64,000 bases of DNA from Pseudeuparius sepicola (Eukaryota; Arthropoda; Insecta; Coleoptera; Anthribidae), in contig OY987298.1 of the NCBI GenBank assembly GCA_963920635.1, positions 37,541,787 through 37,605,786 on the forward strand, read 5' to 3'. Below, piece by piece: positions 3,017 to 54,899 of this stretch (positions are counted from its first letter, which is position 1; each line of letters opens with the position of its first letter). The notes below the pieces were generated by a model. It made no database searches, was not told the DNA's origin, and saw only the letters and a program-made list of their open reading frames with translations. The position numbers and the translations under genes were made by a program.

Positions 3017-4539
3017 CACACATCAAAAATTCTAATGCACAAGGATAAAAATTATGAAATAAACACAATTTTCTGCCATATATATTTTTTTATTATATCT
3101 GTACTCTAAAATAGACATATACTTATATGTAATATGTGTCAAAATTCACAAAAGAATTGAGAAATTCTTCAAATTTACATACCTATACTTAGTTTCCAGA
3201 AAAAAAATTATGCATGTTTTTGCAACACATAATTAAAAACAATAAAGCAACATTAATAAATAATAATCAATACAGAGGATTACCACCACGACTGTTAACA
3301 ACCGCTCTACATCTACGAGGCATACTCAGAATTAGGTTGTCAATGTTATGTTGTTCGATGGCGTTCGATTCATTTGAAAGGCACTCGAATAGTTGTTGGT
3401 CAGTTTGAAATACAATATTTTGCACCAAAAGTCTTCGTCCGCGCACATCTCATAAGTGCTCGATGGGATTAAAGTCAGAGGATTGAGAAGGCCAAGGCAA
3501 AACATTCATTTCATTGTAATGCATTGTAATGCAGAAATTCGCGCACGTCACTTGCCGCATGGGGACGCGCATATTGTCGTTCTGTCGTTCATATAGTTGA
3601 AAGTTTGGTCCAATTCTCTCTTGATAATCATTGGAATTCAGGTACCGCTCCATAACAAAACGAGACTAGTTCTACCGCCGATGTTGATATCGCCCCACGT
3701 GTGATCGTCCTCGACCATCCTCGAAAGGTGTGAACCGCTCGAACAGCTAACAGCAACAAGGCGTTCTGCATTTACAGGACAACTCCACACGCGATGCCTT
3801 CTTGAATCTGCCCGAAATCCAAATCGGGGCTTATCAGAAAAGAAAATTGGAGTCCATTCCTGCTGGTGCAAATTTAAATATGTAACACTGTAAACTGGTT
3901 GTGCGATTTTCTCGTGATAATGCTGGAACTCTTCCAGGCCGGCGGCCATTAATGTGATCTTCGTGGAACCTGTTTCGGGCAGTTTGGTCACTAACCCGTA
4001 CATTGTGAGTATTTTGTAGCTGAATAACCAATTGCGTAGCAGTGATACTGCGCTCTCGCAAGGCTAGCAATCTTAGAAATGAATCCTATATTGGGGTAGT
4101 TGTAGTTACCCTTGTACTTCCTGTATGCTGTTCACTGACGTCTCCTGTTTCTTGGTATCTTATCCATAAACGATTAATAACACTCTTGGATGTGTTAAGA
4201 GTTTCTGCGACATCATTTTGCGAAATTCCAGCCTCCAACATGCCAATAGTACTTAACATCGTTTCACGTTCCAAATGATGTCTCTGCATCATAAAATGTT
4301 TAAAATCAAACTAAACTTGCCCACCACCGAATGACAAAAAGGTATGTACCTATTAAATTAAGAAGCTTTTTCGTTTGAATTTTAAAAAATTCTGCTATGT
4401 TTTTTTTTAAATGTTTAAATGTACTATCAGTTGCTAGAACTGCTCAGAGTCGTACTAATTTTTTAAAATATTTAAATATGAAATAATTAAGAAAATATGC
4501 GCATTTTTGTATTTGTCCCTTAGATTCTTTTGATGTGTG
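3017..4539 (-). mobile_element. Degenerate Tc1-like transposon with terminal inverted repeats
   Basis: The ends begin CACACATCAAAA on the left and mirror it on the right (TTTTGATGTGTG), with about 36 bp of imperfect inverted repeat and TA on both sides (3015-3016 and 4540-4541). The interior carries broken transposase on the minus strand. Size of about 1.5 kb fits Tc1/mariner. It lies just upstream of the OBP terminal exon at 5136. Confidence 0.8.
3430..4292 (-). pseudogene. Broken Tc1-like transposase
   Basis: Minus-strand fragments in several frames together read as a Tc1-type transposase. An N-terminal helix-turn-helix with SQNDVAETLNTSKSVINR-type sequence lies at 4292-4086. A second DNA-binding helix region is near 4070-3840, and the catalytic core ends in SDFNPIEHL near 3460. 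Frames shift around 4070, 3840 and 3650, and a stop replaces the residue after the NPIEHL motif. It is therefore inactive. The family assignment rests on the paired HTH and the final DDE-type motif. Confidence 0.75.
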
Positions 4540-5135
4540 TATCAGCAAAAGTCAGTTTTTTGCCGCATCTTTCAAATAACACTATCACCGTTGAGTGAAA
4601 ACTTCGGCCAGAAAGTATAATAATATACATGGTGTCCGGCCGGATGAAGGTGGATACGTCTGGGAAGCTGATGCCCAAAAATCATAAAAAATGCCACAAG
4701 TTCATGTTCATACACAATTTCAGTTGTTCCTTTGTAACTTATTTCTCATACCAAACTAATTTATGGGTTACTGTAACTGGTTAAGCTATATTAGAAATGC
4801 TTAATTTATTGATTCCTGCTTATTTCTTAAGAGCGCTCCAGAACCAAATTTCTAAACTCAAATCGTTTTGAATAAGACTTTTGCAGAATTTAATAACATG
4901 TTTTAGATTAACTGCTTATGTTTAAGAAAAATATACTCTTGTTTGAATTCCATAAAATCAATAATAATAAATATATAGGATCAATAAAATATGTATAGAG
5001 CAGGTCCCTGTACAGGTTGATCCAGATTTCCTGCTCTCGGCTTATTTTGGTAAAAAAAATGGAAACAAATATTCTGCTTTATGCCCACCAAATTGGCCAT
5101 AGATACCTATAATATAATATTTATATATTTTTTAG

Positions 5136-5314
5136 GGATTCAAAATGAAGCTGGAGATATCCAGAAGGATGAAGTTAGAGGCTATTTGGTAAAGATGAAG
5201 GTCGATGAATCCAAAGTGGACGAAATCATTGAAAACTGCGCCGTACAAAAGGAAACTCCTCAGGAAACCGCTTTTCAAGGAATGAGCTGTGTTGCTAAAT
5301 ACATGGTTAAATAA
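5136..5314 (+). CDS. Terminal exon of a Minus-C odorant-binding protein
   Basis: This is the C-terminal half of a small helical carrier of the PBP/GOBP family. It begins after a TATATTTTTTAG acceptor with a split (phase 1) codon and reads GIQNEAGDIQKDEV, then ENCAVQKETPQETAF and MSCVAKYMVK before the stop. The two cysteines correspond to C4 and C6 of classical OBPs. C5 is absent, as in Minus-C members. It aligns closely with the C-terminal halves of the five other OBP units in the window, for example LNEAGEIQREV in the fourth exon of the large gene. The earlier exons, with signal peptide and first half-domain, are not found between 1 and 5135 and probably lie to the left. Unlike the other units, this one is split by an intron inside the domain. 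The ligand is unknown. Confidence 0.85.
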
Positions 5315-10200: not shown

Positions 10201-10208
10201 TATATAAA
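10201..10208 (+). promoter_or_regulatory. TATA box of the four-domain OBP gene
   Basis: TATATAAA lies 47 bases before the ATG at 10255. A CAACAGTT initiator-like stretch about 30 bases downstream implies a very short 5' UTR. The 150 bases upstream are GC-richer than the surroundings. Confidence 0.75.
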
Positions 10209-10254
10209 GGCGAATTTTTTCCTCGCCGTCAACAGTTGAACTTCCGAAAGAGTC

Positions 10255-10305
10255 ATGAAGACGATCGTTGGAGTTTTGCTGGTGCTGGGCTGTCTGGGAG
10301 CGCAG
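10255..10305 (+). CDS. Exon 1: signal peptide of the four-domain OBP
   Basis: It encodes MKTIVGVLLVLGCLGAQ, a lysine followed by a hydrophobic core, so a classical secretion signal. The exon ends in CAG at the strong donor GTGAGT. The frame is complete (phase 0) and joins directly to exon 2, so the junction reads GAQ|GAPLSLEER. The ATG is the first after the TATA box. Cleavage is expected near the exon junction. Confidence 0.85.
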
Positions 10306-13300
10306 GTGAGTGAACTTTTGTTTTCGCCAGGTTTCACATAACAGGTGAGATTAATTATTAGAGGTCAAGTTCGGATTTGTTTTGTTAAAGTTTACGGCGC
10401 ATATACAGTGTATTCCAAATAGTTGGCAACAAATGGATTTTTTTATTGTTGAGATATTAAAAAAGTATTCTGTGGAATCTTTTCTGCATGTTCAATAACC
10501 TAAGAATCGATTTTGACATAATATGTCAAATCACCACCAATATGGCGGAAATTTAAAAAAACTACTCTCAAGTTAAGAAAAGTGAGTTTAAATGACGAGG
10601 TGTTACAAAAAGTTATTTGAAACAGTAGTTGTATAGAATGTAATTTTAGACCTTTGTGGTAGTTGCCCAAAATAATTGAAAAAAAAAATGTTTTCAGAAA
10701 TATTTGTCCTTATTCAGAAAATTTTTTATTTTTTCCAATTAAATAGAACCGGAAGGCTATTCCTAATGTATTTTTATATATGCAAAAATATGTACTAGAA
10801 TTTGAATACAGTCGTGACGTATTAAGTGTAGATATTTGTGGAAAACCAGAAAAATCCTTTTTTGCGATAAACACATTAGGAATAGCCTTCTGGTTAAATT
10901 TAATTAAAAAAAAAATGTTCTGAAGAAGGAAAACATAGTAATTTTCAATTGTTTTTGGTAACTACATTAAATGTTGCACAAACATCTAAAATTACATTCA
11001 AAACAACTTTTTTAAATAAGTTTTATTAACTTAATGGTAGTTTCTTTGAAGTTGCCCCTATATTGGTGGTGATGTGACATAATATGTCAAAATAGATTCT
11101 TAGGTTCTTGGATATGCAGAGAAGATTCCCCAAAATACTTTTTTATATTTATATACAATAAAAAATTTCCAATTTGTTGCGAACTTTTTGGACTACACTG
11201 TATATGGTGGCGCAGAGTGCAATTCCTAAATGATATTGACCGCGCACGTAGAAAGGACGTAGATATCACTTGAATATTATATTAGCTATGTAGACTAGGC
11301 GATAAAACTGAGCTACGTATTTAGGAAATTGATGTGGGTTAGTGTGCAAAATACTAATAGTAGCATCGCTTTTCTCAGAAACTACTCCTGTGAAAAATGT
11401 GCCATTATTTTGGTCTCAAGGCACTGACAAAACTTTTAGCTTTGTATCTCTATTTTCAGTAAAGGTAGGTTTCTAAATTCAAACTTCTATTAACTATGGA
11501 TGTGCTATTTGTTGCTTTTAAGTTGCTATATACGCCCTTCTATCTTAAGAAGAAAAAAATTCAAATTTAGGTGGGAAGTACCTATACACTCAAAATGTGG
11601 TTGTTTTGACGCAATCAACTTTGACATTGCTCATTGACGTGGAAATACCTGTGTGGAAAATTGGGGTTGATTTCTCAAAAAATAGGTATTAGATATTTTC
11701 TATAAAAAATGTATTTTAGATTCGTACTCAGCATCACCAAAAACCCCATGTTATACCAAACTTGAACAAAATATAATATAAAATATAATTTCATTGATTT
11801 ATTGAGATCGAGCACTCATTTTTTAAATAAAATATTTTAAAAGTGCTGCCTCCTTTCTTCATTTCTTCTATATATTTTTTAAAAAACCAACCCCAAATTG
11901 CCACACAGGATTGAATGCCAACGAGCAATATCAATGTTGATCGAGTCAAATTAATCACATTTTGAGTATTGTATATTTCCCAATTAAATTTGAAATTAAT
12001 GTGTTTTTTTACATACACAGTGTATAACACCTTCTTAAATAAATATCGAGATGTACAATTTTTCTCTGATTTTTCTGGTTGCTCAAGAAATACGAATACT
12101 TAGATACTCTTTCTATGGTTCATACTTTCCTTCTCTAAAAATTGACTCATTCAAGCTGACTCGTGATTTGAGGTACCTACCTATATAATTATCAAAATTG
12201 ACATTCTTTCGAGTTTTTGGTAGATATTTGACAAATAATTGTTTCCTTTTGTCAGAATATTTACTAGTTATGGGAATTGTTAAAGAAAATCTACCTACCC
12301 TTTTTTCTATTTTATTTATTCTTTTGAAGGAAAGTATATTTTGACGATTAGTCCTAACCTAGTAAATATCTAATTAATAAATTTAAAAAAGGTTACTCGA
12401 TACAGTGTGTCCCCAGAACGAAACAAGTGAAACGACTCTTGAAGTTGAAGCTGTATATTCTGCTCGCTTCGAAATTAATTTGTGACATTCTTTTAGTTAA
12501 AAAACCTGCTTTTAAATACAGTGCCTTTTTATGTGAGATATGTCAAAATTTATAAGGAAAAGTTGTTCAGAATGAGATAATATGCCCTAATACCAATAAA
12601 AAGATTTTGACAAACTTTGTTGTGTGATTTTCTCAGGATATACATATTAATTAATCTTAAAAAATTGCCATAATAACAGGTTCGATAAAAAAAAACAGGA
12701 AAATCAATTACAAAAGCAAAATTTTCCATATTCTATGAAATTTGGAACCAAGGAACAGTTTTTGATTGTGAACAATTTTTCCTCCTTCAGAAGTGACACT
12801 TTGCTGGCGGAAGTAACAAGATTTTTCTTAGCTTCCATGGAATATCCACTTGATTTTTCGAAACTTAACTTTTGGCATAAACTCGGGCATAAATTAAGCA
12901 GGCTGAATTCCAGATCAAAAGAGTCGTTTCACTTAACCTGGGACACACTGTATACGATATAGTGTGTTTGACTTATATATTCGAGACAATTCAGTATTTT
13001 TCGAAAGTTGGACTTTCAAAAAAAAATTTCAACCTGTAGTAGTACTCGAAGAGCTCTACATTTTGGATTATAATTTTTTGAGACGGGTATATTTCTCGGC
13101 CTACTGTTATTAAAAAAAGACCCTCAAAAATCACAAAACCATTTAGGCATTTTTTAAAGACTAAAATGGATAGTGCCATTAAATTGGCCGTAGCTCAAAA
13201 CCCTTGGCACACAATTTCAATACTCTAAGTTATACAGAGCTTTCTCCATATGGGGCCAATGTTCGAAAAAATTGGGTTTTCGGGAGTACCATATGTATAA

Positions 13301-16300
13301 ACACAGACCTACATAGCTAGCGAAGCTATATAGGTCTGTGGTACAAGCCACCGGGCATATTTTGATGATCTGGTTTGAGAATCGATTAAGCCTTGCCTAA
13401 GGTATTATCTTACGTAGTATAGCCAATGTAGCCCACACAGGGCGTGAAAAATCAATTAAAGAAACAAATCGAGATTTTACGTTAGGCGCTAGGTACCTAG
13501 GTAACTGTTAACTATATGTAGACGATACCGTTTTTGTTTTCATGGCATTCATGGCACGCCTGATTTGATTGACATGCTTCAACTTCTTGAATAAAGCAGA
13601 ATAAATTAAGGGTGGATGATGATGCCTGTAATTTGTAAAGAAATGTTAAAAGAAATACCTATATCCAAGGGAGACTTAATAGAATACAGTGAAAGCCCAA
13701 ATTATTTATTTTAATATATTTCTTAAAATAATAGATTTTATCATAAAATTTTATGTATGAGCTAGGCTAGATATTCCCGTACGAATAAAAAGAAAGCAAA
13801 TACTCACGAGCATGAGCAAAGGTCGGAGCATGAGCATCTACTCCAATTTGTATGAATAATGATTTGCATTTTGGATTATGGATTATGGATGCATTTGGAT
13901 TTGCTTAAACAAAATAAGCATCTGCTCATGGCGTGATTGTCAAACCTGTCGAAAGTCACATAAATTAGTGCAAACTCGTGTTGAATCTGCATTAATTTGG
14001 CCGCATTGTGACTGTAAGTGTAATTAAAACTAGTGGAATTATGAAGAAAAGGGTACCAATCTGTTTATAGGGTCGCCACCACATTTCTAATTTTAAATTC
14101 CCTGACCTATCCCAGTTTTCCCTGAACAAATACAGTGCGTCCCCCTGCATAAACAAACAAAGAAGTGTAAAAGACAAAAAAAAGCCAGTTGAAATTTCAT
14201 CATTTGGAAATAAGACCTGCTTGATTTTAGAAACTAATTGGTGACATAATTTTAGTTTCGCAAATCAAGTATGCCTTGGGAATTTTGAAAAAACTGAACT
14301 TTCCCACCTGCAAAGGGCTGTTTCTGTAGGTTTTACGACAAAATGATATTAAGGAAACTTATTCAGAATAACACACTGAGTAATTGTGTAAAATTTCAAA
14401 ATCTCTGACTTACTTTGATTACTTTTTAATGTTATTCTAGAAAAAACAAAATAGGTGGATGGTTTTTAAACTTCCTAGGGGACCCTAATTTTGCATCCTG
14501 AACAATTTTTCTTAGTAACATTTTGTGATGGAAAACGAGGGAAAACTTGAAAAGAAATCAAAGTAGGCCTAGGATTTTGAAATTTCACACACTTACTCAA
14601 TATTTATTTAAATTTAATTAAATTACTGCTTAAAACGCTTTGTTTTTATTGTGTTGTAAATTGAGGGAGTTGAGGAAGTCGAGATAACGTTAGTTTTACC
14701 CGAATTTCAAGTGTTTTGAGCTAAACCTAAAAAAACGCCGACGAGAATATTTCTCTATCAGAAGTCATAAATAAGTGCAAATTTCATAACAAAAAGCAGA
14801 TTAAAGTTTCCTGACGTATGTTCAAAACATTTTATTACAGGTGAAACATGAATTTTTTTTCTAGAAATCATGCTGGCCTTCATTTACTTTGGGCAGTGAC
14901 TATAGAAAGAATTTCTAGAAATCATGCGGCCTTCATTTACTTTGGGCAGTGACTATATATTCTTTCTATAGTCACTGCTTTGGGCAACGTTGACGGAAAT
15001 TTGATCCACAAATGGGCCTTTTGAATTTTTTCATAACAGATGAAATCGTTTCTTGAAACAGTGTATACTGATCATTCGCAGCTCATCTGCAACTCCCGTC
15101 TGAAATCCCGGATTTGCCATTACTGCAAGAAAACTTTCATGATTTTCTCCCAAAAAGTAGGTTTCCATCCAAATTGCATTTTCTTCTTTAAATCGGTAAA
15201 GATATTTAAAATCTCGACTATTAGCTCCTCATCGTACTTTGTATTGCTTCCGTGCACGTAAATTCCCGAACTCCGCCATTTTATGACCAGCTCATGGCAA
15301 GGTGCATCTAATGCTAACAAGATGCAAAAATTTTAGAGCAAATGCTCAAAGTAGTAAGCAATACCTTCATTTTATTCATGACAAGTTGAGGAAATACTTA
15401 AATGTGAGTGGATGCTCATGCTTATAATACACTTTTGAGCAAAACCTTTTACTTACAATTTTATTCATAAAATATATAGCATATGCTTCAAGTTTTGCGA
15501 GTAAAAGGTTTTGCTCACTTTTATTCATACGGCCCGTAAACAATACCTTAGGCAAAGCTTAATTGATTCGGATTAAAGCCGGCACTCCGGAAAACCCAAT
15601 TTTTTTGAAATTTATAGTATTGAAATTTTATACCAAGGATTTTGAACTATGGTCAATTCGATGGCACTATCCATTTTATTTTTAAAAAATGGCTAACATA
15701 TAGTTTTTTGGGTGACTTCTTTTAATAATAGTAGGGCATGGCATATGACTATTTAATAAAATATAATCAAAAATGTAGGGCTCTTCGAGTACTATAGGTT
15801 AAAAAAGGCCTTTTGAAAATCGGCCCATGTTTCGAAAAATACGAAATTGTCTGGACTCAAAGTGAAACATACTATAAATGTGACTCAAAAATCTGCCAAA
15901 AATTTGTTAAACAAACGGTGTATCTCCAGGTAGGTGAAACTACTCTTGTAAAATGCAAAAATGTTTCGAGTTGAAATTTGAGTTTCAGGGGTTCAGTCTT
16001 GCTTGTTTTAAAATTAATTTGTAAATATCTTTAGTTACGAAAAAGTACGTGTGACTTGGAAATATTGAAAAAAACTAATTTTTCAAACCAGTAAAGTTCC
16101 CTTTTTGTAGGTTTTACGTTTTCAATTTGTTTTACGTTTTACGACAAAATGTTATGTTCAAAATAATACAGGCATTATTTTTGGAGATGCCTATGTAAAT
16201 AGTAGATACGAAAGTTTCGTAGATGTTGTATTGTAGAAGTTCAAATCTAAAAAAAGATGCTACGATTTTTAGTTTTAAAAATAAATTTTCATAATAATTA

Positions 16301-19300
16301 TTTAAAATTTCCCCAAAAAAAAAAACACCCCTTATATCATCAGAGAAGCATTATACGCTTTTATGGATATACGATTCGTCCATGATATATTTTTTCGCCA
16401 TTTAATTAATCGAATTTACACCAAAATAAAACTAACTCGGAAAATAGCAAAATTAATTTAAATTCTGTAGGGTAACTTTATCATTTCATTGCTATACTAT
16501 TAGCTTTAAAAGTACTTGTTTGAATTATTATGTCATTCGTAACCTGAAAAGTAGTTTTTTTTTAAGTCTAATGCTCCATTTTCTTCTAGGGTGCACCCCT
16601 TTCTCTAGAAGAAAGATACAAGCTATCTGCCTACCACAAAGAATGTCTGGCCAAGACCGGCGTAGAAGAGAACCTCGTCGATGGGGCTAAAAGAGGAGAA
16701 TTTTCCGAAAATGCCAAATTCAAGGACTACCTGTTCTGCATCTCGCAAAAGATCGGCATCCAAAATGAAAACGGCGAACTGCAACAGGAAGTCTTGAAGC
16801 AGAAGCTGGCAAACTTCATTCGCGACTTCGACGAGGCTTCTAGATTGGTGGACAAATGTGCAGTGCAGCAGAGGTCTCCTCAAGATACCGCTTACCATGT
16901 TATCAAGTGCTACTTTGACAGTAGTCCGGAACATGTCATTATTTTCACCGTAAGCATTGATTAAAGGACACAGAGAGTGCAATCATCGCGAAGGAAACGC
17001 TTGCAAGCAGCTTGATATATCTCTGTCTATATTTTATACGTAGAAAAGTTGAAACAGCGCTACTGACTGATAGCAAGCGCATGCATGCGTTTTGATGACG
17101 GTAGATACAGCCATGGTAGATATAGCAGCAAGATTAAGAAGACATAGACAGTCAGAATCATTGTTGAAAGCGTCCGCAATATATCCCACTACACCAATTT
17201 TAAAACTGTAATTTTGGAGCGAAAACAAATTAAAAAAATATAAATTGTAATATTTATAACAACTCTTAGGACACTATACTAAGTTTAGGTATAGGTATTT
17301 TAATTTAGATATTAGTTTTTAAAAAAAATTTTATGCGAAATATTTGGTGGACTTCTCGGAAATTACAACAATGGTTCTCACAGTCTATCTGTAGCAGCTT
17401 TGTCTATGGTGTAAGCATAATACCTAACGTTTCTTTATACACTGGCTCTAAATATCTATGCTACATAATATTACTAACATAAAAGTTTCCAGGTTCATTC
17501 AGGCAGCTTAAACAAATACTCGTCAATATTTTTTTTATTTAAAAGATATCTATGGATATCTTTATATTTTAAATATGGTCCTTATAATTTAAAAAAACTG
17601 TACCGATACATCTTACATTTCTAAAAATAGCCAGTTAATAATTTCAATACATTTTTACAGGATGTAGTTTTGTCAGAAGAAAAGTCCCAAATGCTTCTCT
17701 CATATCACAGAGACTGCATTGCTCAATCAGGAGTAGAGGAAAAGGTTGTCATCAACGCAAAGAAGAGAGGAGAATTCTCCCAAGACCCTAAGTTCAAGGA
17801 ATACCTTCTATGTCTCTCCAAGAGGACCGGCTTCCAAAATGAGGAAGGAGAAATCCAAATGAACGTTCTCAAGGAGAAAGTAACCGAGGTCACCAAAGAC
17901 GAGAAACTCGCAAAGGAACTTATTGAGAAGTGCGCAAAGAAGCAAGACTCTCCACAGAATACCGCTTACTTCGTTATCAAGTGTTACTATGATAATACGC
18001 CTTTTGTTGTGCAACTATTTCCGGAAAGAAAAGTAAGTATAGCATATTTTTAACATATTTTTGAAGAAAATAGGTCAATAACAGATTTCATGCAACTAAA
18101 TGTGATATAATAAGACCATGTCTTTTGCTAACCTATCAAACTTAATACTTAATATCTAATTATTCTAGATTGTCCGGCTACCTGGAGAGAAGGCGGAGAT
18201 TCTTATAAAATACCACAAAGAGTGCGTTGCTGAAACCGGAGTAAACGAATACCTGATAAAAAAAGCCAGGAAGGGCGACTACAGCATCGACGACCCCAAG
18301 CTAAGGGAATACGCTTTCTGTATGTCGAAGAAAGTAGGCATCCTGAACGAAGCCGGCGAAATCCAAAGGGAAGTACTGAAGAAGAAGATGGCCATCTTGA
18401 TCGAAGATCCAATTATGGCTGACAAGCTGCTGGAGATGTGCGCCGTGCAGAAGGACAGTCCCCAAGATACTGCGTTCTATGCGATGAAGTGTTATTATGA
18501 AAATAGCTCGACTAGAATTAGCGTTTTGGAGGTAAATCATACATTATAGAGTAATAATGTACACCTTTCTCGATTTTAATATGGGGTGTTATAATTTAAC
18601 AGTATATTGTGCAGGAAGGTATTGAGAAAATGTACAAAGGGGTGTCCTGCTGCAAGTTTTTCTAGAATCACATCAGACTCAAATTGGCAGTAACGTTGTA
18701 AAGGTTAGATTGATTTCAATATCTTAGAGGTTTATTAAAAATAATTCAGTGGCGTGGCATAATTATAAAAGTTTCGGAGCTGTATAAAAATGAAACTCTT
18801 CATGGAATATATAAGACAAGAATAGCGTTAGCTTATAAAGTAGATACAAAACTATTAAGAAAGTAGTTTCTCACTATAGAAATTGATTAAACTAAAATGA
18901 ACACAATCAAGTTTTGCAATACAAAACTTGATTGTTTTGATGTTAAGTAAGTTGAGTACAACTACTAACTACTTCAACAAAGAAAGTAGTTTCACTACTA
19001 ACTACTTAGTAGTTCCTATAAACATGGCTTCAAAAATGCTTCCTACAAGGGGGCTATAGCCCCCGAAATAGACAGTTTTGCAAACGGTTCTTTCTAAATA
19101 TTCCCAAAATGAGCAAAGATAAAATTTTAAAATTTGAGATTTGACATTCACGCAGGTCGAGATAGTTTGACATTCTTCATCATAGGCGTTCCAAATGGGG
19201 GTCAAGGGGTTAAAAATACCCGAAATTTTTTTGTTTGCCTTTTTCATGACTTCTTCTCCCAGGTATATCATGTATATCACATACCAAATCTCAAACTTTC

Positions 19301-22300
19301 ACCTTTCGCTTTTCAGTTAGGTAGTTAATTAGATTACTGGAAAGTAGTTAGATTACTGGAAAGTAGTTAGATTACTGTAAAGTGGTTAGATTACTTTAAG
19401 TAGTTTTTAGGTGGTAGTTAACTACTTCTTCAACAAAAGTATTTTATGGAATTAAAAATGAGTGTAACTACTAATATCAAAAAAGTAGTTTGAGTACAAC
19501 TACTTTTCCTGACAAGTAATTAACTACGTAGTTAACTACTCTCTCAATACTTTAATAAACCTCTGCGATATTGAAATCAATCTACCCTTTACAACGTTAC
19601 TGCCAGTTGGAGTCTCGTGTGCTTCTAGAAATACTTGCAGCAGGACAACCCCTTTTACGTTGTCATTAAATTGCTGCACAATATAGTGCGCACTTCAAAT
19701 CACCCAAACTGTCAGCTAAGGCAAAATAGCCAACATTGTGGGATTTCAAAGAATAGTTTCGATTCTTTGCGATATTTTGGGAACGGTTGACTTATAATTG
19801 ACTTGAAAATTTCAGTGGTTTTTGTTCCCGATTTTTTTATTTTTGGGTATTAACAATTATGACTCCAAATAATTACATCATGGTCAGTAATAAATAGTAT
19901 AACCATAAGTTGAAATACGGGTATTTTAGTTAAAAAAAATAGTAAAAGAACATTTTATGAACTAAGTACCTACTTACCTATAATGCCGCATACCCAGATA
20001 GAATGTACTAAACATACAAAACTTAAAAGATATTTCATGTAAAACTAAAAACTATCCTACATTGCAAAAACATATTTTCTATACATCTATCAATCAATCA
20101 ATAAAATTCAATTTATTATTAACTAAATGCAAAAATACATAAACATATTCGCCAGAGTTGCACACCTAAGCAAAGTGCATTACTGCTTGTGTGTGTACAT
20201 TCAGTACTAAATAATAGAAAATAAACTCCTATAAATTAGTCAAACATGCCCTTAAAACATGGCCTGAATTCGCCTTACTGTTTCATTAATAATGCGTTTT
20301 TGCTGAAAATGCATAAATCAGTTAGTATAACTCCAAATTTAAAAAAATAAAAAAAACAGCAAAACAGAATAAATGCATCTGTGTCAACACTAATGCCGTG
20401 TAGGCCCTGCTCTACTTCTTATCACTGCATTCATGCTCCAAGGCATGTTTGATATAAAATGTTCAACAAACGCTTGCGGAATATTCTCCCATTCTTCAAT
20501 AGTGACCTGTATGAGTTGGTTGTGATTAGCAGTCTACGATTTCGAATCTTTTTTTGAGATGGTCCCTTAGACATAGATGCTCTATAGGATTCATGTCAGG
20601 ACTGTTTGGTGGCCACTGTAATAAAGGGATATTAACCCATTTAATTTTTAATTGGGTTTTTCTTTGAGAAAGGAGGAAGATTTATTCTCCGAGAAGTTAT
20701 TTTTTGAGTTACACGTTTAAAGTTACGTTCATTCACTGTTAAGAATAAATTAATTTTCCAGGCAATTTGAAAAAGTTGTCTTTCGATCAGTGTGGTGGCG
20801 AAAAGCCCAATTAAAAATTAAATGGATCTGTTTGCGCCACAAATAAATTTTAGAAAATATAAAGGGATATTAACATTAACATCATTAACCTGTCTAGACA
20901 CATGGGGATGAGAGTTGTCCTGCACGAATAAAAAATTTGGTCCAACAAACGGAGCAATAATGTTGTCTAAGTAATATTGGACATTCATAGACCTCGTACG
21001 TATAGGGACCAACTCCGCACGAGCATCGAAGCAAATTCCCACCGAAACATTTTAGAGCCACCACCAAAAGGTACTTTATTAGAGATATTGCATCTGGAAA
21101 ACCTCTCCTCGCCTTCGCTCGTCGCCAGACACGCTCACGTCCATCTGGAGCTTTAAGGCTAACTCTAGTTTCATCGGAGACCATAACTTGTTTCCAATCA
21201 TTGATGGTCCAATTCTGATGTAGTCTTGTAAAATTCATTCTCTGAACTTTGTGTTCTCTGGTAAGCAGTGGTTTTTGGCCGGTCTTCTGTTGCTTAATCC
21301 TGCTTAATGTAAACGTCTTCTAACCGTTCGGGACGATATAGAGATACTTCGAACATCTGCTAATTCATATTTTTGCAGATTGCTAGTGACTCTCCTTTCT
21401 CCGAGAGCACGTTGTCTCAAAAAAAAAAAAAACTATCAATCTGATTAGTGCAACGTTTTCGCCCTTGCCCTGGTCTTTGATGGTACGAGCCCGTTTCATT
21501 ATGTCTTCCAAACAAACCAGCAACATATCGCATTGAATATCCCTCATTCGGGAGGGTCGATGTTCCCACTGCATCCTCAATTTCTTTGGCGGTTCATTTT
21601 CCTTTCTTGAATCACTCGCAAATGAACTCCCCAACATGCATGTGATAAAAACAATCACATTCGAAAGCTTTCTTTTTACAGACACTTTAATCAGCACTTT
21701 TTAAGAAAATTTTAACACCGTTTTAGTCTAAAACAAGGTTTAATACAAATTACTGTCGAAACAAGGTTATGTAATACTATAGCTATAGCTTAAATAACAA
21801 CTGTCACTGTCAAAAAAGATCCATGGCCTACTTGTCGAGAAGAAATTATGAAAATATAAAAACTATCGAGAAAAATATGAGCGGTGCGTTAATTTTGTCC
21901 AGGAGTTTATATTCACAAACTATAGCCCATAAAAAAATATAATTTATAATTTACAACTTCACAAAATCACCTGGCTTTAGAAGTCTGTTAAAAATAACAT
22001 TTAAAAAATCATTTAAAATGGCCTTATTTGTTGAAATTTCAAAAAAATTTTAATATACTAATCCATAACATTTTTATTTATGGAGATAAACGCCTGAACA
22101 AATTTTGTTCGAAAGGCCTTAATAATTCAAGCACTAGGGAGATTACTAGTGAAAATACCACACTCGTGGTATTATCCCTGAAATCGTCACCTGATTGGTT
22201 AATATATCATTTTATTGGTTCATATTGGTGGTTCATATTGGCAGGCGTTGAATTCTTGTAATATGTTTTACGATATATCCAAACAAACCCGATTTTTACC

Positions 22301-25300
22301 ACTTTTTATTTGTAACGATCGCCTGGAGATGTATACCCAAAACATGGACAACGTGGCCCGAAATCATATTTTCAAAGAGTATAATAATAAAATGTTTTAC
22401 TATTTGTTGCAAACATTTTGAATAGCAAATAATAAAGTGGTAGGTATACATATTTATTTTTATTTATTTTCATTTTCAAAATAATAAGTCAATAATGTAT
22501 AGTTTTAGTTTTAGTTTTTCTACTCCTATGCTAGTAAGTGACTGTTTAGGTTATAAGTAAGTCCATTGTTATGAACACTGACACGTAATGACTGACACGT
22601 AATAAGAAAATTGCGTATTTGTTCTTAATTAAAACGCAATTATCACGGGTGCCTTGTTAGCGCGGCATCCGCGTCACCATAGCAACTAACCAACACACTA
22701 ATAATTGTTGCCTGTCAAATAATCAGAAGTATAGTAGTTTATCTATTATAATAGTTTCTCTTTCGTCGAAGAAAAATTATTATATCTACTACAAAACTGG
22801 AGTTGTAAGCTTATTACATACTCGTGGAATTACAGCACTCGCCGTTGCGCGGCTCGTGCGCAACTTTTCCACTCATACGTAATAAGCTGTTTACAACTCT
22901 CGCTATGTAATATACTATTACGTATCTATTACCAAAATTCGACACTTTTTACAGAACAAATTGCTTTTTAGTACTTATTTTATTTTTGGATTTTAGCTTG
23001 TAACGCTGTAATAAGTGGTGAATATTGGTAAAATATATGCATAAATGTGTGTGAACTACTTGAAAAATTTTTACTTGAAAACTATTATTACTCCGGCCAT
23101 CTCAATAGGCGAGGAAAACGTTAATTTATTTTCTTTCGTACTTAAGCCACAATCTTTGACCGCAACTAACAAGAACAATTATTTCTCACTTTGTAAATTT
23201 TCACGAAAAGTAGACAAAAATGTAAGAATCTGTCGAACTAAATATCGGTCGACTTTCTCACATTAAAGTATATACAAGCTAAAAATATATTTGGCAGTAA
23301 TCCATCAGCTAGGTATCCATATACCAAATGAATAATTCTGCAAAACGAAAATACCAAGCTTAAAACTTCCCGATAAAAATGAAACTTAAGGCGCTACGAT
23401 ACCCCCCATTTTCAAGGGTTTCGTAGTTTACATCTCCTACTTGCATTTCTTAATATTTTCACTTGATTTTTTTTTGTGGCTTAGATAAAACTACGAAGAA
23501 TCGTCGTTGTGTATCACGAACTGTGCAGGACTAATGCGACACTGTGAAAAAAAATGCCAAACATACCCGAAATTCGACTATATTCGGTTAAGAATTTCGA
23601 GTATTTCCACCACTCAAAAATAATTCGAAGGACACAACGACGATTGAGGCATTCTGTAACATTATTTTAAGACTACTTTCAAGTCGATACGTTTGTTCGT
23701 TTGGCTATGATTTGAAAACTACGAACCCATTGCCCGGCAATAAAATGATCCGTGAATTGGCCATTCGAGCAGGAATTAGACGTACGGAGATAGGCGGGCG
23801 GGCGGGCGTTCGCTGGAACTCGTGGTTCCCCTACTTCCCCCTACTTCGGCGTACCTCACCGGGCTCGGAAACCACGTCAGGAGAACTTTCAATCGATATC
23901 AGATGGTTCATTTTTCATTTTATTAGTCTCAGTCTCCCTTATTTGTGTTTCGCTTGTTTTGAATGTTAGTATGTTAGCAAATATTTATATTTCCGAGTAC
24001 CCGAAGAAAATATTTTCTACCGCGACATTATGTATGTCGACTGGCATATAATAATACTCATTATTATTATTCCTCCAGGAATTATAAATAAATAATTATT
24101 AATCCATTACGCCACAAATAAATTTTAGAAAATAAATAATTATTATTCACAAAGTACCTACTTTTTGCTTTTGTGTAAAATGGTTTAATCCCTAGAGCAT
24201 AAAATGGCCTGGTCGTGCAAAAAGAGTAAATTTAAATTCTAGACCAAATTGTGCGCTTGATTTTTACTTTAAAAATGTGATAGGTACAAGTAATAATTTT
24301 GCCAAATAAATGGGTCATGTGAAGCATTTTTTGAAAACGAATTCCTATGTAAATCGCTGCATGATAAAAGCTAATTTATATACTTTCCAGAGGGAACGAT
24401 AATAATTCTGACATCCAGTCAGTTTTAGAAACTTCTTCGTTAGAAGATTGTTCGAAAGTCATTGGAGTTGAAAATCGGGCAAAATAAAAATAGTACATTT
24501 TATTGTTCCAGTCTGTCTAATTTATGACATTTTAATACATTTTCTAGGATGTTCGATAATTCAGATTTGTCAGAATAAGGTTCTGAAACTGAACCGCAGT
24601 CAGGGCAAGAATACCTATAATGTTTGATAATGATGTCACAACAGTCACATGTAGTGAAACCAATAGGAGTAATTTGTGGGCTTGAGTGCTTTTATTCCCG
24701 TAGGTACCTAATATGGTTTCCAGAATTTGAGAGAGGGGTACCTACATATTTTGAATTTTGCACACTTATTCGGATTTAGGTATAAGTAGTACTGCAGGTG
24801 CATAGGGTTTGGGAAACAAACTTTCTGGGAAAAACAGGGCTTTGAATGGAACATTTACAAGGGATTAGAAATTAATAGCTCCTATTATCTCACAACTATT
24901 ACTTTATTTAAAAAGGGAGACCAGTTTCGTAACTCTATAAATTAGTCCTTGAGGATGTAATTTTATAGATTAACGAAACCGTTGTGATATAATATGGCCT
25001 ATTCACTCTAATCCCTCTAAAGTGAACTCTTACAGTGTAGAAAGTTTTTAGTTAGATTTATTTATTATTACACAAATGTAAATATGGAATACCTACTAGT
25101 TATATAAAACATTTTGAAGAAGTAGACTTTAGACGCACTTTTTTAGTCGTAGCAACACTATTATGCAGAACAATTATCCAATCAAACATTAATAGATGTT
25201 CAACTGACCCTAATGTGGTTCAAGAAGAATTCGGTAATCGAATCGTTAATTTAGATTTTATAATTGAGCAATTACAAGTTTTTTTTATACACGAACCCTT

Positions 25301-28300
25301 CATAGCATGCACCTTTGCTGATATGAAAAATAATAGTAAAATTGCTTCGACGCCAAAAAGCTATGCAGTGTGTTGCCAACGAAAAGTGAACGCCCTGAAA
25401 AATATCATTTTTGCAATAAAGCAAACAGGCCACCGCCGTTTTTTAAATATATATTCCCGCTTCTTCGTCGGCATCGGCGAGACTCGTGTGACCCCGGCGG
25501 CCGTCGGCGGCGGCCGGCACGAGTTATTATTTCATATTATCTACACGTCTACACAGGAAAAAAAGACTGTTGTGATTTTAGTGAGTTCGTGTATATAGTC
25601 ACTTTTCCATTACCTACTTTAAATATACAAGCAAATCCATGTGGTCCCAACAATATAATCTATACTTTTGACGTAATTGCAGATGAACCAATAAGTTTAA
25701 AATAGTTTGAATTTCCGTTAAGAAGACGTATTGTCACTTCGATACTAAAATTGGCATACTACAATGAAAGCATAACCTCGGTTTTAAAATATCTTATGTT
25801 TTATTTAAACAATTAAATTTATTTTATTTGAATAATAATAATTCTCACCCTCAGACTACTCCAAACTATATAAGAGTACCCCAGAAGCAACTGAAAAAAC
25901 ATTATAATTCATTGGATGAACAAAAAACTTAATTGCAACTTTTATATTCATCAATGTAAGTAATCATAGTCCAAGCAAATTGTCATTTTTTTATAGAGGT
26001 AGAAAAAAAAATGATTCTTAACAGGTAGATATTTTCAGGGTTGGTTGTGGGTAGCGTCCTGAGTATAACCCCAAAAAATCACCGTCGAAGTCGTGTTACG
26101 AACCTCGCAATAGGAGTGGTTTTGCAAACATTTTTTTGCAATTTTTTTTCTTCTCATGTGTACAATTTTTTTTCTTCTTATGTATACATTATTACGTTCT
26201 CTACAACTTTCTCTCATGAAGTTTTTTTTAACTTCAATACTTCACGAGATATAGGTAAAAGATCACCACTATCTAAAGTGCTTTATAAGGGTAAAAAAAA
26301 ATTCTTTAAAACAAGCTGATTTTTTCAGGGTTAACTGGGGGTTAACTTAGGAGTGCACACAGTGATCGCAAATTAAAGGTTTTGAATCAACCCTACACTC
26401 TATATCGTTCGTAGTCATAATGAACACTGCAAGTGAATGGCTATAATTGATATTAGTACCCACAATTAAGTATTACAAATCCAGCAAAAATTCAGTGACA
26501 ATAGTTGTAATTTCAGTATAATGAACAGTTAAATGTATCCCTATTCAATTCAACACCATGAAACGTTATGTTGTTCTGACAAAAGAATGTGCTTAGAAAA
26601 GAAGTATTATAGAATCAATTCCAGAACACGCTATTTATTGAAATAAAATATTACATTTAAATTATTCATTAGAATTCAATATCAATTGTAATTGAATTGA
26701 TTATTGTTAGTTACAAAAAAGCTTCTGCTTGAGTTTGAGGAATAATGTCTCATATTGAATTAAACAGGGTTTTTTTACAAAGTGACAGAGTTTTCTCAGT
26801 GTAGTACCCACGGCCGGCCTGCCCCTCAATCGTAGCACTATGAAGGGGCAAGCTGGAGTGGGGAGTCGTGGGGACCAGAGGAAGGAAAAGGATAGGCATA
26901 TCTAATCGAGCGACGTTTGTCCTGAATTGAGTCGGGCATTTCGGGCGGATTTCATAAGTATCGTAGCCTCTTAAAGCACAACGGTGTAACTGATAACGCT
27001 TCCATTTCGTTCAGTGGCGGTCAGAAGGGGGATATTATTGCATCAAATAATAATAAAAACAGCAATGTAATATTCAATATTCCATCATGTGATAAGTTGT
27101 GATTTTTTTCTTTTTCTCTTTTTTTTCAAAAAGGAGGAGGTTATCAATTCGGTTGTATGTTTTTTTTTATGTTTGTTACCTCAGAACTCCGTCATTTATA
27201 AACCGATTTGGACAATTCTTTTTTTATTTGAAAGGGTATACCTACAGATTGGTCCCATTTAAATTTGAAGAAAAAATTTCACCCATAAGGGTGGAAAAAT
27301 AGGGGATGAAATTTCATATTGGACCGATTTCGATGATTCTCTTTTTATTAGAAAGGGATTACTTTAGGAGTGGCCCCATTTAAATTTAAAGAAAAAATTC
27401 CACCACAAGGGTGGACAAATAGGGGATGAAATTTTTATTGAACCGATTTCGATGATTCTTTCTTTATTAGAAAGGGGTTACCTTAGGGGTGGTCCCATTT
27501 AAATTTAAAGAAAAAAATTCCACCTCTAAGGGTAGATAAATAGGGGATGAAAGTTCATATTGGACCGATTTGGATGATTCTTATTTTATTAGAAAGGGGT
27601 TACCTTAGGGGTGGTCACATTTAAATTTGAAGAGAAATTAAATTTGACAAGAAAAATTTCAATCCTAAGGATGGACAAATAGAGGATGGAATTTTATATT
27701 GGACTGATTTCGATAATTCTTAATAGTTCACTAAAAAATAAGAAATAAAAAATTGTAACAAAAAAATTAAAACCGACCTCAAAAATTTGCCCGTATGCAC
27801 ATGCACACTCCACTAAAAATTAAAAAAAAAATTAACAAAAAATAACACCAACTTCACAAATTTGCCCGTATGCACATTTCAACTAAAGTTTTAGAAATAT
27901 TTTTCTCTTTTTAAATTGAGTTATCTTTGGAGTCGGTCACAGTAAGGTACGATGTATGTAGGATATGATGTATTCATATCTAAATAGATTTAAATTCCTT
28001 GCCTTGACTGTCACCATATCCAAAGATAACTCAGTTTAGAAAGGGAAAAATATTTCTAAAATTTTAGTTGAAATGTGCATACGGGCAAATTTGTGAAGTA
28101 GGTGTTATTTTTTGATATATTTTTTTAATTTTTAATGGAGTGTGCATACGGGCAAAATTTTGAAGTCGGTTTTAATTTTTTTGTTAAATTTTTTTTATTT
28201 TGCTGTTTTTATTTTGTTAAGAGTAGGTACCTACCTAATAAATAGGTTGTCAACCATGGCTCAGTGTTTTCATTAAAAAAATTAAATTTGCCCCCCCCCC

Positions 28301-28748
28301 CCTCTTAAACTTGTGTAACTGATCATTGATCGTCGGCCCCCCCATGTTAAAATCCTAGGACCGCCACTGATTTCGTTCATTGCAGGCTGTGTCCATTAGC
28401 GACGATCGAAAAGAGAAATACAAGGCGGCCTGCAGGGCTTGCGCCATCGAAACCGGCGTCAAGAGGGAATTGGTAAACAACGCCAAGAAAGGACAGTTCT
28501 CGGAGGACCCCACCTTCAAGGAGTACATCTTCTGCATCACCAAGAAGTTCGGTTACCTCAGCGAAAACGGAGAATTCCAGAGGGACGTTGCCAAGGACAG
28601 CCTCACCGAAAAGTTGAAGGATGACGAGTTGGTAGCTACGGTTCTGGATAAATGTTTGGTGACGAGGGATACGCCTCAAAATACTGCCTTTGAATCTTTC
28701 AAGTGCCTTTATGAGACTGTGCCGAAACGTTGCCGTTTTGAATTTTAA
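10255..28748 (+). CDS. Four-domain Minus-C odorant-binding protein (spliced, 5 exons)
   Basis: Exons are 10255-10305, 16590-16949, 17661-18032, 18169-18531 and 28386-28748. Together they read as one frame of about 502 residues: a secretion signal, then four complete PBP/GOBP domains of 120-124 residues. All four introns are phase 0. Donors are CAG|GTGAGT, ACC|GTAAGC, AAA|GTAAGT and GAG|GTAAAT. Acceptors are TTCTTCTAG, ATTTTTACAG, TATTCTAG and CATTGCAG. Each domain keeps the four Minus-C cysteines, a TG(V) turn after C1, an FC or LC plus K-G segment, and a [ST]PQ[DN]TA motif before the last cysteine. OBPs are secreted carriers of small hydrophobic ligands in sensillar lymph or haemolymph. A typical family member has a single domain; two-domain members are known. 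The alternative reading is several isoforms sharing one signal exon. The gene structure is read directly; the full-length transcript is inference. Confidence 0.75.
10406..11200. mobile_element. Palindromic TA element in intron 1 (family C, copy 1)
   Basis: CAGTGTATTCCAAATAGTTG at the left mirrors the right end, which finishes in GGACTACACTG, with TA on both sides. The arms include AATGTTCAATAACC-type and GACATAATATGTCAAA blocks in both orientations. A related copy is at 43872-44290. It lies 100 bases after the donor of exon 1. Confidence 0.75.
11205..12400. other. Intron 1 sequence, faint inverted repeat only
   Basis: There are no exons. Phrases around 11600-11760 (AATTGGGGTTG, TTGACATTGCTC) recur inverted near 11880-11990. 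This suggests an old palindromic element of about 0.4 kb. Confidence 0.4.
12403..12950. mobile_element. Palindromic TA element in intron 1
   Basis: The left end is CAGTGTGTCCCCAGAACG and the right end mirrors CAGTGTGTCCCAGG, with TA duplications. GTGAAACGACTCTT occurs in both arms. Confidence 0.7.
12960..15875. mobile_element. Large composite inverted repeat in intron 1
   Basis: The outer arms are about 12960-13412 and 15541-15875. They share, inverted, a GACAATT-CAGTATTTTTCGAAA-like end, a CTCGAAGAGCTCTACATTTT block and a CCTAAGG-GATTC block. Between them is a further element, about 13778-15536, whose ends read CGTACGAATAAAA and its inverse. Inside that are pieces related to the CAGTGTGTCCC family near 14130-14640. 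A half copy of the outer arm occurs at 29990-30365. A 40-bp hairpin (ACAGACCTACATAGCTAGCG) sits at about 13305-13342. Confidence 0.65.
16590..16949 (+). CDS. Exon 2: OBP domain 1
   Basis: This exon encodes 120 residues, a whole OBP domain without an internal intron. It starts GAPLSLEERYKLSAYHKEC (C1), then KTGVEENL, DYLFCISQKIG (C3), QNENGELQQEVLKQKL, LVDKCAVQQRSPQDTAY (C4) and VIKCYFD (C6). It ends in a hydrophobic tail, EHVIIFT. C2 and C5 are missing, which defines the Minus-C type. The donor GTAAGC follows ACC at 16950. If it is not used, translation adds four residues (VSID) and stops at 16962-16964, giving a single-domain protein. No AATAAA follows closely. Confidence 0.85.
17661..18032 (+). 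CDS. Exon 3: OBP domain 2
   Basis: This exon encodes 124 residues in phase 0. It runs from DVVLSEEKSQMLLSYHRDC (C1) through QSGVEEKVV, YLLCLSKRTG (C3), QNEEGEIQMNVLKEKV and LIEKCAKKQDSPQNTAY (C4) to VIKCYYD (C6), with tail FVVQLFPERK. It is the most lysine- and glutamate-rich of the domains. The donor AAA|GTAAGT is strong. Reading through it gives VSIAYF and a stop at about 18051-18053. The short 136-base intron to exon 4 shows that these two exons belong to one transcription unit. Confidence 0.87.
18169..18531 (+). CDS. Exon 4: OBP domain 3
   Basis: This exon encodes 121 residues in phase 0, from IVRLPGEKAEILIKYHKEC (C1) through ETGVNEYL, YAFCMSKKVG (C3), LNEAGEIQREVLKKKM and LLEMCAVQKDSPQDTAF (C4) to AMKCYYE (C6), with tail TRISVLE. 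The donor is GAG|GTAAAT. Reading through it adds VNHTL and a stop at 18547-18549. It is the closest of the four to the orphan exon at 5136 in the central stretch. Confidence 0.87.
18603..19690. mobile_element. Palindromic element in intron 4
   Basis: AGTATATTGTGCAG at the left, then GGGGTGTCCTGCTGCAAG and GGCAGTAACGTTGTAAAGG, all recur inverted between about 19555 and 19690. The centre contains repeated AAGTAGTTAGATTACTG units near 19335-19400. No coding sequence is seen. Confidence 0.7.
19340..19405. repeat. Tandem GGAAAGTAGTTAGATTACT units
   Basis: Three to four near-copies of a roughly 19-base unit lie in the centre of the surrounding palindrome. An AACTACT motif is frequent on both sides. 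Confidence 0.6.
20405..21690 (-). pseudogene. Broken Tc1-like transposase with retroelement insertion
   Basis: The minus-strand fragments include the core WKQVMVSDETRVSLKAPDGR (first D), then FVQDNSHPHVSRQV (second D) near 20915. The final NSPDMNPIEHL motif (E) lies near 20590-20615, on the other side of the inserted retroelement. Frameshifts separate the pieces. The spacing and motifs are typical of Tc1 transposases, and it cannot be active. Confidence 0.75.
20637..20858 (+). mobile_element. 5'-truncated retroelement copy with inverted 5' end
   Basis: It is flanked by the duplication ATAAAGGGATATTAAC at 20621-20636 and 20859-20874. It ends in CGCCACAAATAAATTTTAG, like the copies at 28906-29437 and 24101-24130. 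The first 26 bases are the reverse complement of a segment near its own 3' end, the pattern of twin priming. Confidence 0.8.
22611..22930. repeat. Hairpin repeats in intron 4
   Basis: A hairpin with AATTGCGT and ACGCAATT arms lies at about 22611-22641. A larger one lies near 22800-22890, where CTTATTACATACTCGTGG is mirrored by CCACTCATACGTAATAAG around a GC-rich centre. No gene is seen. Confidence 0.6.
22935..27000. other. Intron 4 sequence without recognised exons
   Basis: No OBP-like or other domain is visible. GC-richer patches occur near 23740-23880, 25430-25530 and 26810-26960, all without splice-bounded frames that I trust. A CAGGGTT-containing sequence occurs near 26030 and again near 26325. 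One very short retroelement copy lies at 24101-24130. Confidence 0.5.
24101..24130 (+). mobile_element. Extremely short retroelement 3' end
   Basis: CGCCACAAATAAATTTTAG, the 3' end of the retroelement at 28906-29437, is present here with only about 28 bases. It is flanked on both sides by AATAAATAATTATTA. It looks like an insertion truncated almost to nothing. Confidence 0.6.
27195..27725. repeat. About 120-bp tandem repeat, 4-5 copies
   Basis: Units containing AGGGGATGAAATTTCATATT and ACCGATTTCGATGATTCT start near 27181, 27301, 27421, 27541 and 27682. They lie entirely inside the hAT element. Confidence 0.8.
27748..28215. repeat. Palindrome inside the hAT element
   Basis: AAATTTGCCCGTATGCACAT occurs twice on the left and inverted twice on the right. 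The arms meet around a GATATGATGTATTCATATC centre near 27960-27980. Confidence 0.75.
28386..28748 (+). CDS. Exon 5: OBP domain 4, terminal
   Basis: This exon encodes 120 residues and a TAA stop. It starts AVSISDDRKEKYKAACRAC and continues ETGVKREL, EYIFCITKKFG (C3), LSENGEFQRDVAKDSL, VLDKCLVTRDTPQNTAF (C4) and SFKCLYE (C6), ending PKRCRFEF. It has two cysteines more than the other domains: one three residues before C1 and one near the C-terminus. These might form an extra disulfide tying the ends together. The frame is in phase 0 with exon 4. Base composition is GC-richer than the other exons. Its acceptor lies next to a hAT insertion. Confidence 0.85.
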   Translation, partial: AVSISDDRKEKYKAACRACAIETGVKRELVNNAKKGQFSEDPTFKEYIFCITKKFGYLSENGEFQRDVAKDSLTEKLKDDELVATVLDKCLVTRDTPQNTAFESFKCLYETVPKRCRFEF

Positions 28749-28796
28749 GTTAGGTATATAGGTTATATAAGAGATAATACGTGATAATTTATTTTA

Positions 28797-28802
28797 ATAA
28801 AA
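28797..28802 (+). terminator. Poly(A) signal AATAAA of the four-domain OBP gene
   Basis: AATAAA lies 49 bases after the TAA stop of exon 5, within an AT-rich 3' UTR. No comparable signal follows the read-through stops of exons 2-4 closely. Confidence 0.75.
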
Positions 28803-45077: not shown

Positions 45078-45140
45078 ATGAAGCTGATAGTGGCAATTTT
45101 GGTTTTTTCATTGGCCCTAATTTTTATATCGCAATGTCAG
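45078..45140 (+). CDS. Signal-peptide exon of the small basic peptide
   Basis: It encodes MKLIVAILVFSLALIFISQC and Q, followed by the donor GTAAGT. AGCCAAAATG gives a good insect start context, and a TATA box lies upstream. The exon has the same layout as exon 1 of the OBP genes (signal peptide, phase-0 donor). The downstream partner exon is less certain than this one. Confidence 0.7.
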
Positions 45141-54542: not shown

Positions 54543-54899
54543 TTAGAAAAGACTAATAGGAGTCGGTGAGTTTTTGAAGTAACATTTGACGGTGTCGACG
54601 GCCGTGTCTTGGGGCGACTCCTTCTGTATGGAGCACTTGTCGACCAGCTTGGCGGCCTCCTCTGGGTTGTCCATGAGATCGCCCAGCTTCTTCTTCAGAA
54701 CGTCGATCTGGAGGACGCCGGCGTCGTTCTGGAAGCCCGACTTCTTGGACATGCAGAAGATGTGCTCCCTGAGTTTGGGGTCATCGGCTATCTCGCCTTT
54801 TCTTGACTTCACGACGACTGCCTCGTCCACTCCGGATTCTGTGCGGCAATCTTTCGAACGCTGGGCCACAAGCGCTTTTTGCTCGTCTGTCAGTTTGGC
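54543..54899 (-). CDS. OBP domain exon (minus strand)
   Basis: It encodes 118 residues and a stop. It follows the acceptor ATTTTTCAG and begins AKLTDEQKALVAQRSKDC. The whole domain lies in one exon, as in exons 2-5 of the four-domain gene. The plus-strand frames of about 105 and 65 codons over it are antisense shadows. Confidence 0.9.
   Translation of the reverse strand, partial: AKLTDEQKALVAQRSKDCRTESGVDEAVVVKSRKGEIADDPKLREHIFCMSKKSGFQNDAGVLQIDVLKKKLGDLMDNPEEAAKLVDKCSIQKESPQDTAVDTVKCYFKNSPTPISLF

Follow-up and report, generated by a model that had tools for sequence, protein, structure and literature searches.

A beetle gene predicted to encode four tandem odorant-binding-protein domains in one secreted protein

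One gene in the window (the whole 64 kb stretch of DNA that was analysed) very probably makes one secreted four-domain protein, a tetramer of the DponObp4 kind, with a TATA promoter, a signal exon and an AATAAA that each occur singly. A sequence-only reading had proposed that a single gene here encodes four tandem odorant-binding-protein (OBP) domains, and this proposal is well supported by the sequence and by a four-domain relative from Aromia moschata. One chain is favoured by the single signal exon, the pattern of poly(A) signals and the Aromia moschata protein, while the weak donors of exons 2–4 and the 9.9 kb last intron count against it.

The five exons lie on the + strand at the positions named beforehand, with AG acceptors and GT donors bounding four GT..AG introns, all in phase 0. 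Two overlapping matches to a TATA box (at 10201 and 10203; 10201–10209, +) occur 52–54 bases upstream of the start codon. Exon 1 (10255–10305, +) holds the start codon and the signal peptide MKTIVGVLLVLGCLGAQ, 17 hydrophobic residues that qualified as a signal peptide in a simple scan rather than in a dedicated signal-peptide predictor, and ends in the phase-0 donor CAG/GTGAGT. After intron 1 (10306–16589, +; 6284 bases) come exon 2 with OBP domain 1 (16590–16949, +; 120 residues), intron 2 (16950–17660, +; 711 bases), exon 3 with domain 2 (17661–18032, +; 124 residues), intron 3 (18033–18168, +; 136 bases), exon 4 with domain 3 (18169–18531, +; 121 residues), intron 4 (18532–28385, +; 9854 bases) and exon 5 with domain 4 (28386–28748, +; 120 residues and the stop). 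The poly(A) signal AATAAA (28796–28801, +) lies 50 bases past the start of the stop codon. When joined, the five exons form a frame of 502 codons plus a stop that is open throughout, so that the splice sites, the uniform phase 0 and the roughly 502 residues free of stops were all found as the sequence-only reading had described them. GC content at third codon positions of the exons was 0.48–0.71, and the four introns, over all their bases, had a GC content of 0.24–0.34.

Intron 4 contains sequence that by eye resembles mobile elements, and no OBP remnant was detected in it by tblastn (E up to 1). Broken frames at 3453–4310 (−) and 20821–21319 (−) look by eye like remnants of Tc1/mariner-type transposases; Pfam named a transposase in none of the five pieces of mobile-element-like frames, one of which gave only a sub-threshold helix-turn-helix or paired-box match. 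Rfam returned nothing at gathering scores.

Each domain exon taken alone scored 75–77 bits against PF01395 (PBP_GOBP; Pfam cut-off, 22 bits), and the joined protein scored 267 bits over four stretches. Identity between the domains was 40–51% in local alignments, and a multiple alignment gave 36–38% for domain 4 against domains 1–3, values low enough to indicate that the copies are old and have diverged, rather than being a duplicate created in assembly. Applied to the cysteines, the Minus-C pattern (C1, C3, C4 and C6 present; C2 and C5 absent) was found in domains 1–3, which have four cysteines only, and fits domain 4 only in part, as this domain has the four (Cys 19, 50, 90 and 107) together with two more at residues 16 and 116 (codons 28431–28433 and 28731–28733). 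The idea that each exon is a whole Minus-C domain thus holds for domains 1–3 and has to be amended for domain 4. Cys16 is placed three residues ahead of the first conserved cysteine and Cys116 nine past the last; as a guess from these positions, the two could form a third, non-canonical disulfide. Domain 4, the only domain that was folded, was modelled with a pLDDT of 91 and six helices, as in the six-helix OBP fold. A fold search with this model gave 131 PDB matches, 24 of them at E ≤ 0.001, and the best 36 of the 131 were all OBPs or the THP12 carrier. THP12, a single-domain carrier of Tenebrio (PDB 1c3y; 38% identity to domain 4 in the fold match), was also the best PDB match by sequence, over residues 392–492 (domain 4; E 1e-18).

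Other parts of OBP genes are present in the window. Segments at 54899–54543 (−) and 60425–60372 (−), the second being a signal exon MKAFVVAAIVLVVAVITE, were paired as an ordinary single-domain Minus-C OBP gene with a 5.5 kb phase-0 intron, one domain exon and an AATAAA after it. Another OBP is represented at about 5135–5313 (+) by its second half, which carries a stop and an AATAAA; an intron falls inside its domain, unlike in the other OBPs here. A tblastn search of the 5.1 kb that the window contains upstream of it did not detect the first half, so the other exons of this OBP lie outside the window or have been lost. A further signal-peptide exon, MKLIVAILVFSLALIFISQCQ (45078–45140, +), ends in a strong phase-0 donor and is preceded at 65 bases by a TATA-like site, and no OBP exon was found downstream of it by tblastn on the + strand within the window.

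Signal exons were scanned for across both strands of the 64 kb as a start codon with a hydrophobic core and a good phase-0 donor, the donors being scored with a matrix whose frequencies were set by hand; the exon at 60425 (−) served as a positive control through its pairing with the 54.5 kb exon of the single-domain OBP. The strict scan gave three hits, at 10255 (+), 45078 (+) and 60425 (−). Relaxed thresholds (donor at least 1.3, core at least 2.0) raised the number to 11 over both strands, and 10255 was alone on the + strand in 10255–28385, leaving no further signal exon on the + strand of 10306–28385 at these thresholds. Lowering the donor threshold to at least 0 gave 16 hits, with one more in 10255–28385 (24633) that was not signal-like by eye. 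These scans speak against separate adjoining single-domain genes, in which, for example, domain 4 or domains 1–3 would have a signal exon that the scans missed. Such an arrangement would match the tandem arrays described for most Hypothenemus OBP genes, the presence in the window of a second OBP gene and a partial third one, and the room in the 9.9 kb gap ahead of domain 4; a three-domain Coccinella model, P0001, moreover looks like merged genes by its internal signal peptide. The 136-base intron ahead of domain 3 is hardly long enough for a promoter and a signal exon, and together with the scans it makes separate genes extremely improbable.

The poly(A) signals and donors bear on a second alternative, that alternative splicing links the one signal exon to a single domain exon at a time, yielding up to four single-domain OBPs with either no tetramer or both forms. 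All acceptors are in phase 0, so the signal exon is in frame with any of them, and signal exon plus domain 4 would make an ordinary single-domain OBP. Read without splicing, domains 1, 2 and 3 reach a stop 4, 6 and 5 codons beyond their donors. These donors scored 1.3, 3.7 and 3.4 bits, compared with 9.1 bits for that of the signal exon (hand-set matrix), and are weak enough for exon skipping or early ends to be possible. The variant ATTAAA occurs at 16960, overlapping the read-through stop of domain 1, at 17229, 267 bases after that stop, and 187 bases after the read-through stop of domain 3; OBP signal exons are, further, described as alternatively spliced in Dendroctonus ponderosae (PMC6720082). 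Against this, all three exons that terminate OBP genes (that of domain 4, the one at 5.3 kb and that of the 54.5 kb gene) have AATAAA 50, 56 and 62 bases past the start of the stop codon, but none of the three read-through stops of domains 1–3 is followed by one within 300 bases. Phase-0 donors are also found 13–16 residues beyond the last conserved cysteine in three of three of these domains; a random phase-0 GT of at least 1.3 bits in a nine-codon stretch occurred in 2.7% of 20,000 draws from the window, so donors in three of three are unlikely by chance, with the proviso that duplication as the source of the exons would make the three interdependent. A tetramer is, moreover, described with transcript support in D. 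ponderosae (PMC6720082) and another from an Ips transcriptome (PMC11395090). Overall, single-domain products as the output of alternative splicing are improbable in place of, or on a par with, the tetramer, though minor single-domain isoforms beside it are possible.

A chain made whole might also be cut into single OBPs after secretion. A basic pair is present at one of the three junctions (RK, residues 260–261, between domains 2 and 3), but junctions 1/2 and 3/4 have none and no R-x-K/R-R site was found in the whole protein; the absence of a furin-type site and the basic pair at only one junction make such cutting unlikely, and we regard a polyprotein as very improbable. For the single four-domain chain, transcription would start from the TATA promoter ahead of 10255 and the signal exon would be spliced to the four domain exons; that all four enter one mRNA we infer. 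The mature product would be of about 56 kDa, with 485 residues and four OBP domains in a row. As to origin, the domain exons, all starting at the same point just past the signal sequence, were probably duplicated or fused.

A profile built from the 54.5 kb OBP together with the four window domains matched 17 proteins: 11 carry the name of a beetle, one is from a thrips, and five have no species name. The 11 come from Tenebrio, Zophobas, Xylotrechus, Harmonia, Dendroctonus, Euwallacea, Pagiophloeus, Monochamus and Holotrichia, all beetle genera. A full-length search returned P0001 alone (1 among 7995 scored, the candidates being those that share most words). This protein (Coccinella septempunctata LOC123307181) was not counted as a three-domain precedent, since by eye a signal peptide lies inside it and its second domain is truncated, and is probably the product of neighbouring genes merged by annotation. 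One relative with four PBP_GOBP domains was found in the protein database, Aromia moschata P0019. It surfaced only with words from domain 3 combined with limits on whole-protein length (1 among 75 candidates), and since the full-length search missed it, absence from that database says little.

P0019 (hypothetical protein NQ318_008550; 484 residues) has four PF01395 stretches in Pfam and 47% identity over 98% of the query. It aligns over its full length with the spliced reading of the window gene, save for residues absent at its domain 2/3 junction; against that reading, a single gap is needed at junction 1/2 and none at junction 3/4. The P0019 gene model may be an imperfect prediction that lacks residues at junction 2/3. 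Its domain 4 has only four cysteines, in contrast to the six of window domain 4, and its domain 2 has a cysteine three residues ahead of the first conserved one, like Cys16 of window domain 4. The literature searched held no title on Aromia, a name that was not itself a search term.

In a domain tree that included Aromia (22 rows, 200 bootstrap trees), window domain 1 paired with Aromia domain 1 at 98/90, and the support for window domain 3 pairing with Aromia domain 3 was not strong (83/74). Window domain 2 joined the pair of domain 1 and Aromia domain 1 (89/72) and not Aromia domain 2, and window domain 4 had no resolved partner. The AU test spoke against a constraint that joins domain 4 to Aromia domain 4 (p = 0.027); it gave p = 0.20 for domain 2 with Aromia domain 2 and p = 0.356 for window domain 4 with Aromia domain 2. 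The eight domains of both proteins formed one group in 0% of the 200 bootstrap trees. An earlier tree without Aromia (25 rows) had joined domains 1 and 2 (90/85) and did not resolve domains 3 and 4 and the 54.5 kb OBP. From the layout and domain 1, a tetramer common to the window gene and Aromia is likely, and one-to-one orthology of the domains appears supported for domain 1, moderately so for domain 3 and not for domains 2 and 4, with no support for a single origin of all domains within the gene. It is conceivable, though we consider it unlikely, that an old beetle tetramer gene had its domain exons reshuffled or replaced, in which case domain 4 would not be the counterpart of Aromia domain 4 (it may match Aromia domain 2) and would have gained a Cys16–Cys116 disulfide tying the tail to the first helix.

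Four-domain OBPs have been described before. Andersson et al. (2019, PMC6720082) reported DponObp4 of D. ponderosae as a Minus-C OBP “tetramer” of 500 residues, in which a short signal exon precedes four exons that resemble one another and all bear the Minus-C motif. According to that description, its introns measure about 60 bases between the first three domain exons and 1.26 kb ahead of the last, and support for the gene comes from transcriptomes as well as from Tomicus yunnanensis and Rhynchophorus ferrugineus transcripts. The same layout, a signal exon and four whole-OBP exons with about 500 residues in all, was found in the window gene, which by comparison with the description resembles DponObp4 in its length (502 versus 500 residues), its exons and its longest inter-domain intron coming last, and differs in the lengths of these introns (711, 136 and 9854 bases versus about 60 bases and 1.26 kb). 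Other proteins can be likened to it by name only, being called a tetramer OBP or a DponOBP4 homologue in their papers: IdupOBP27 of Ips duplicatus, from an antennal transcriptome (PMC11395090), SvelOBP10 of Sympiezomias velatus, recovered from an antennal transcriptome as an incomplete 493-residue frame in a paper that also mentions Dendroctonus adjunctus (PMC9193972), and DvirOBP128 of Diabrotica (PMC9840275). The suggestion that the architecture is new therefore has to be given up, as the same layout has been on record in DponObp4 since 2019 (PMC6720082) and in later tetramers (PMC9193972, PMC9840275, PMC11395090); the window gene is a genuine additional case of a known kind of four-domain OBP from weevils, bark beetles and a leaf beetle. 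The double-domain OBPs of Nasonia and the Drosophila dimers Obp83cd/83ef are likewise tandem fusions of OBP domains, but with two domains instead of four and with other cysteine patterns, and the fused OBPs of wasps, flies and mosquitoes are there viewed as having independent origins (PMC3428353).

The published tetramer descriptions, as far as they were available, report no function. A secreted carrier with four hydrophobic pockets is suggested by the domain 4 model, the THP12 match and the expression of Minus-C OBPs in Tribolium, of which 5 of 21 are given as raised in chemosensory tissue (PMC4377858). By analogy with these, the protein may serve as a four-pocket carrier of hydrophobic molecules mainly outside the antenna (in haemolymph, glands or reproductive fluids), a proposal for and against which we see an even balance. 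Several ligands might be bound at once, as the sequence-only reading suggested. DponObp4 is described as having no expression in adult antennae (PMC6720082), and the derivation of the Ips and Sympiezomias tetramers from antennal transcriptomes weakens the case for a non-antennal site.

The four-domain OBPs named to date form a small set, from weevils, bark beetles and Diabrotica, to which the gene adds one more beetle. Along with the Aromia protein, it provides material for dating the origin of the gene and for asking whether domain order is kept. If the domain exons have indeed been reshuffled, the gene would present binding modules swapped in a natural series behind an unchanging signal exon.
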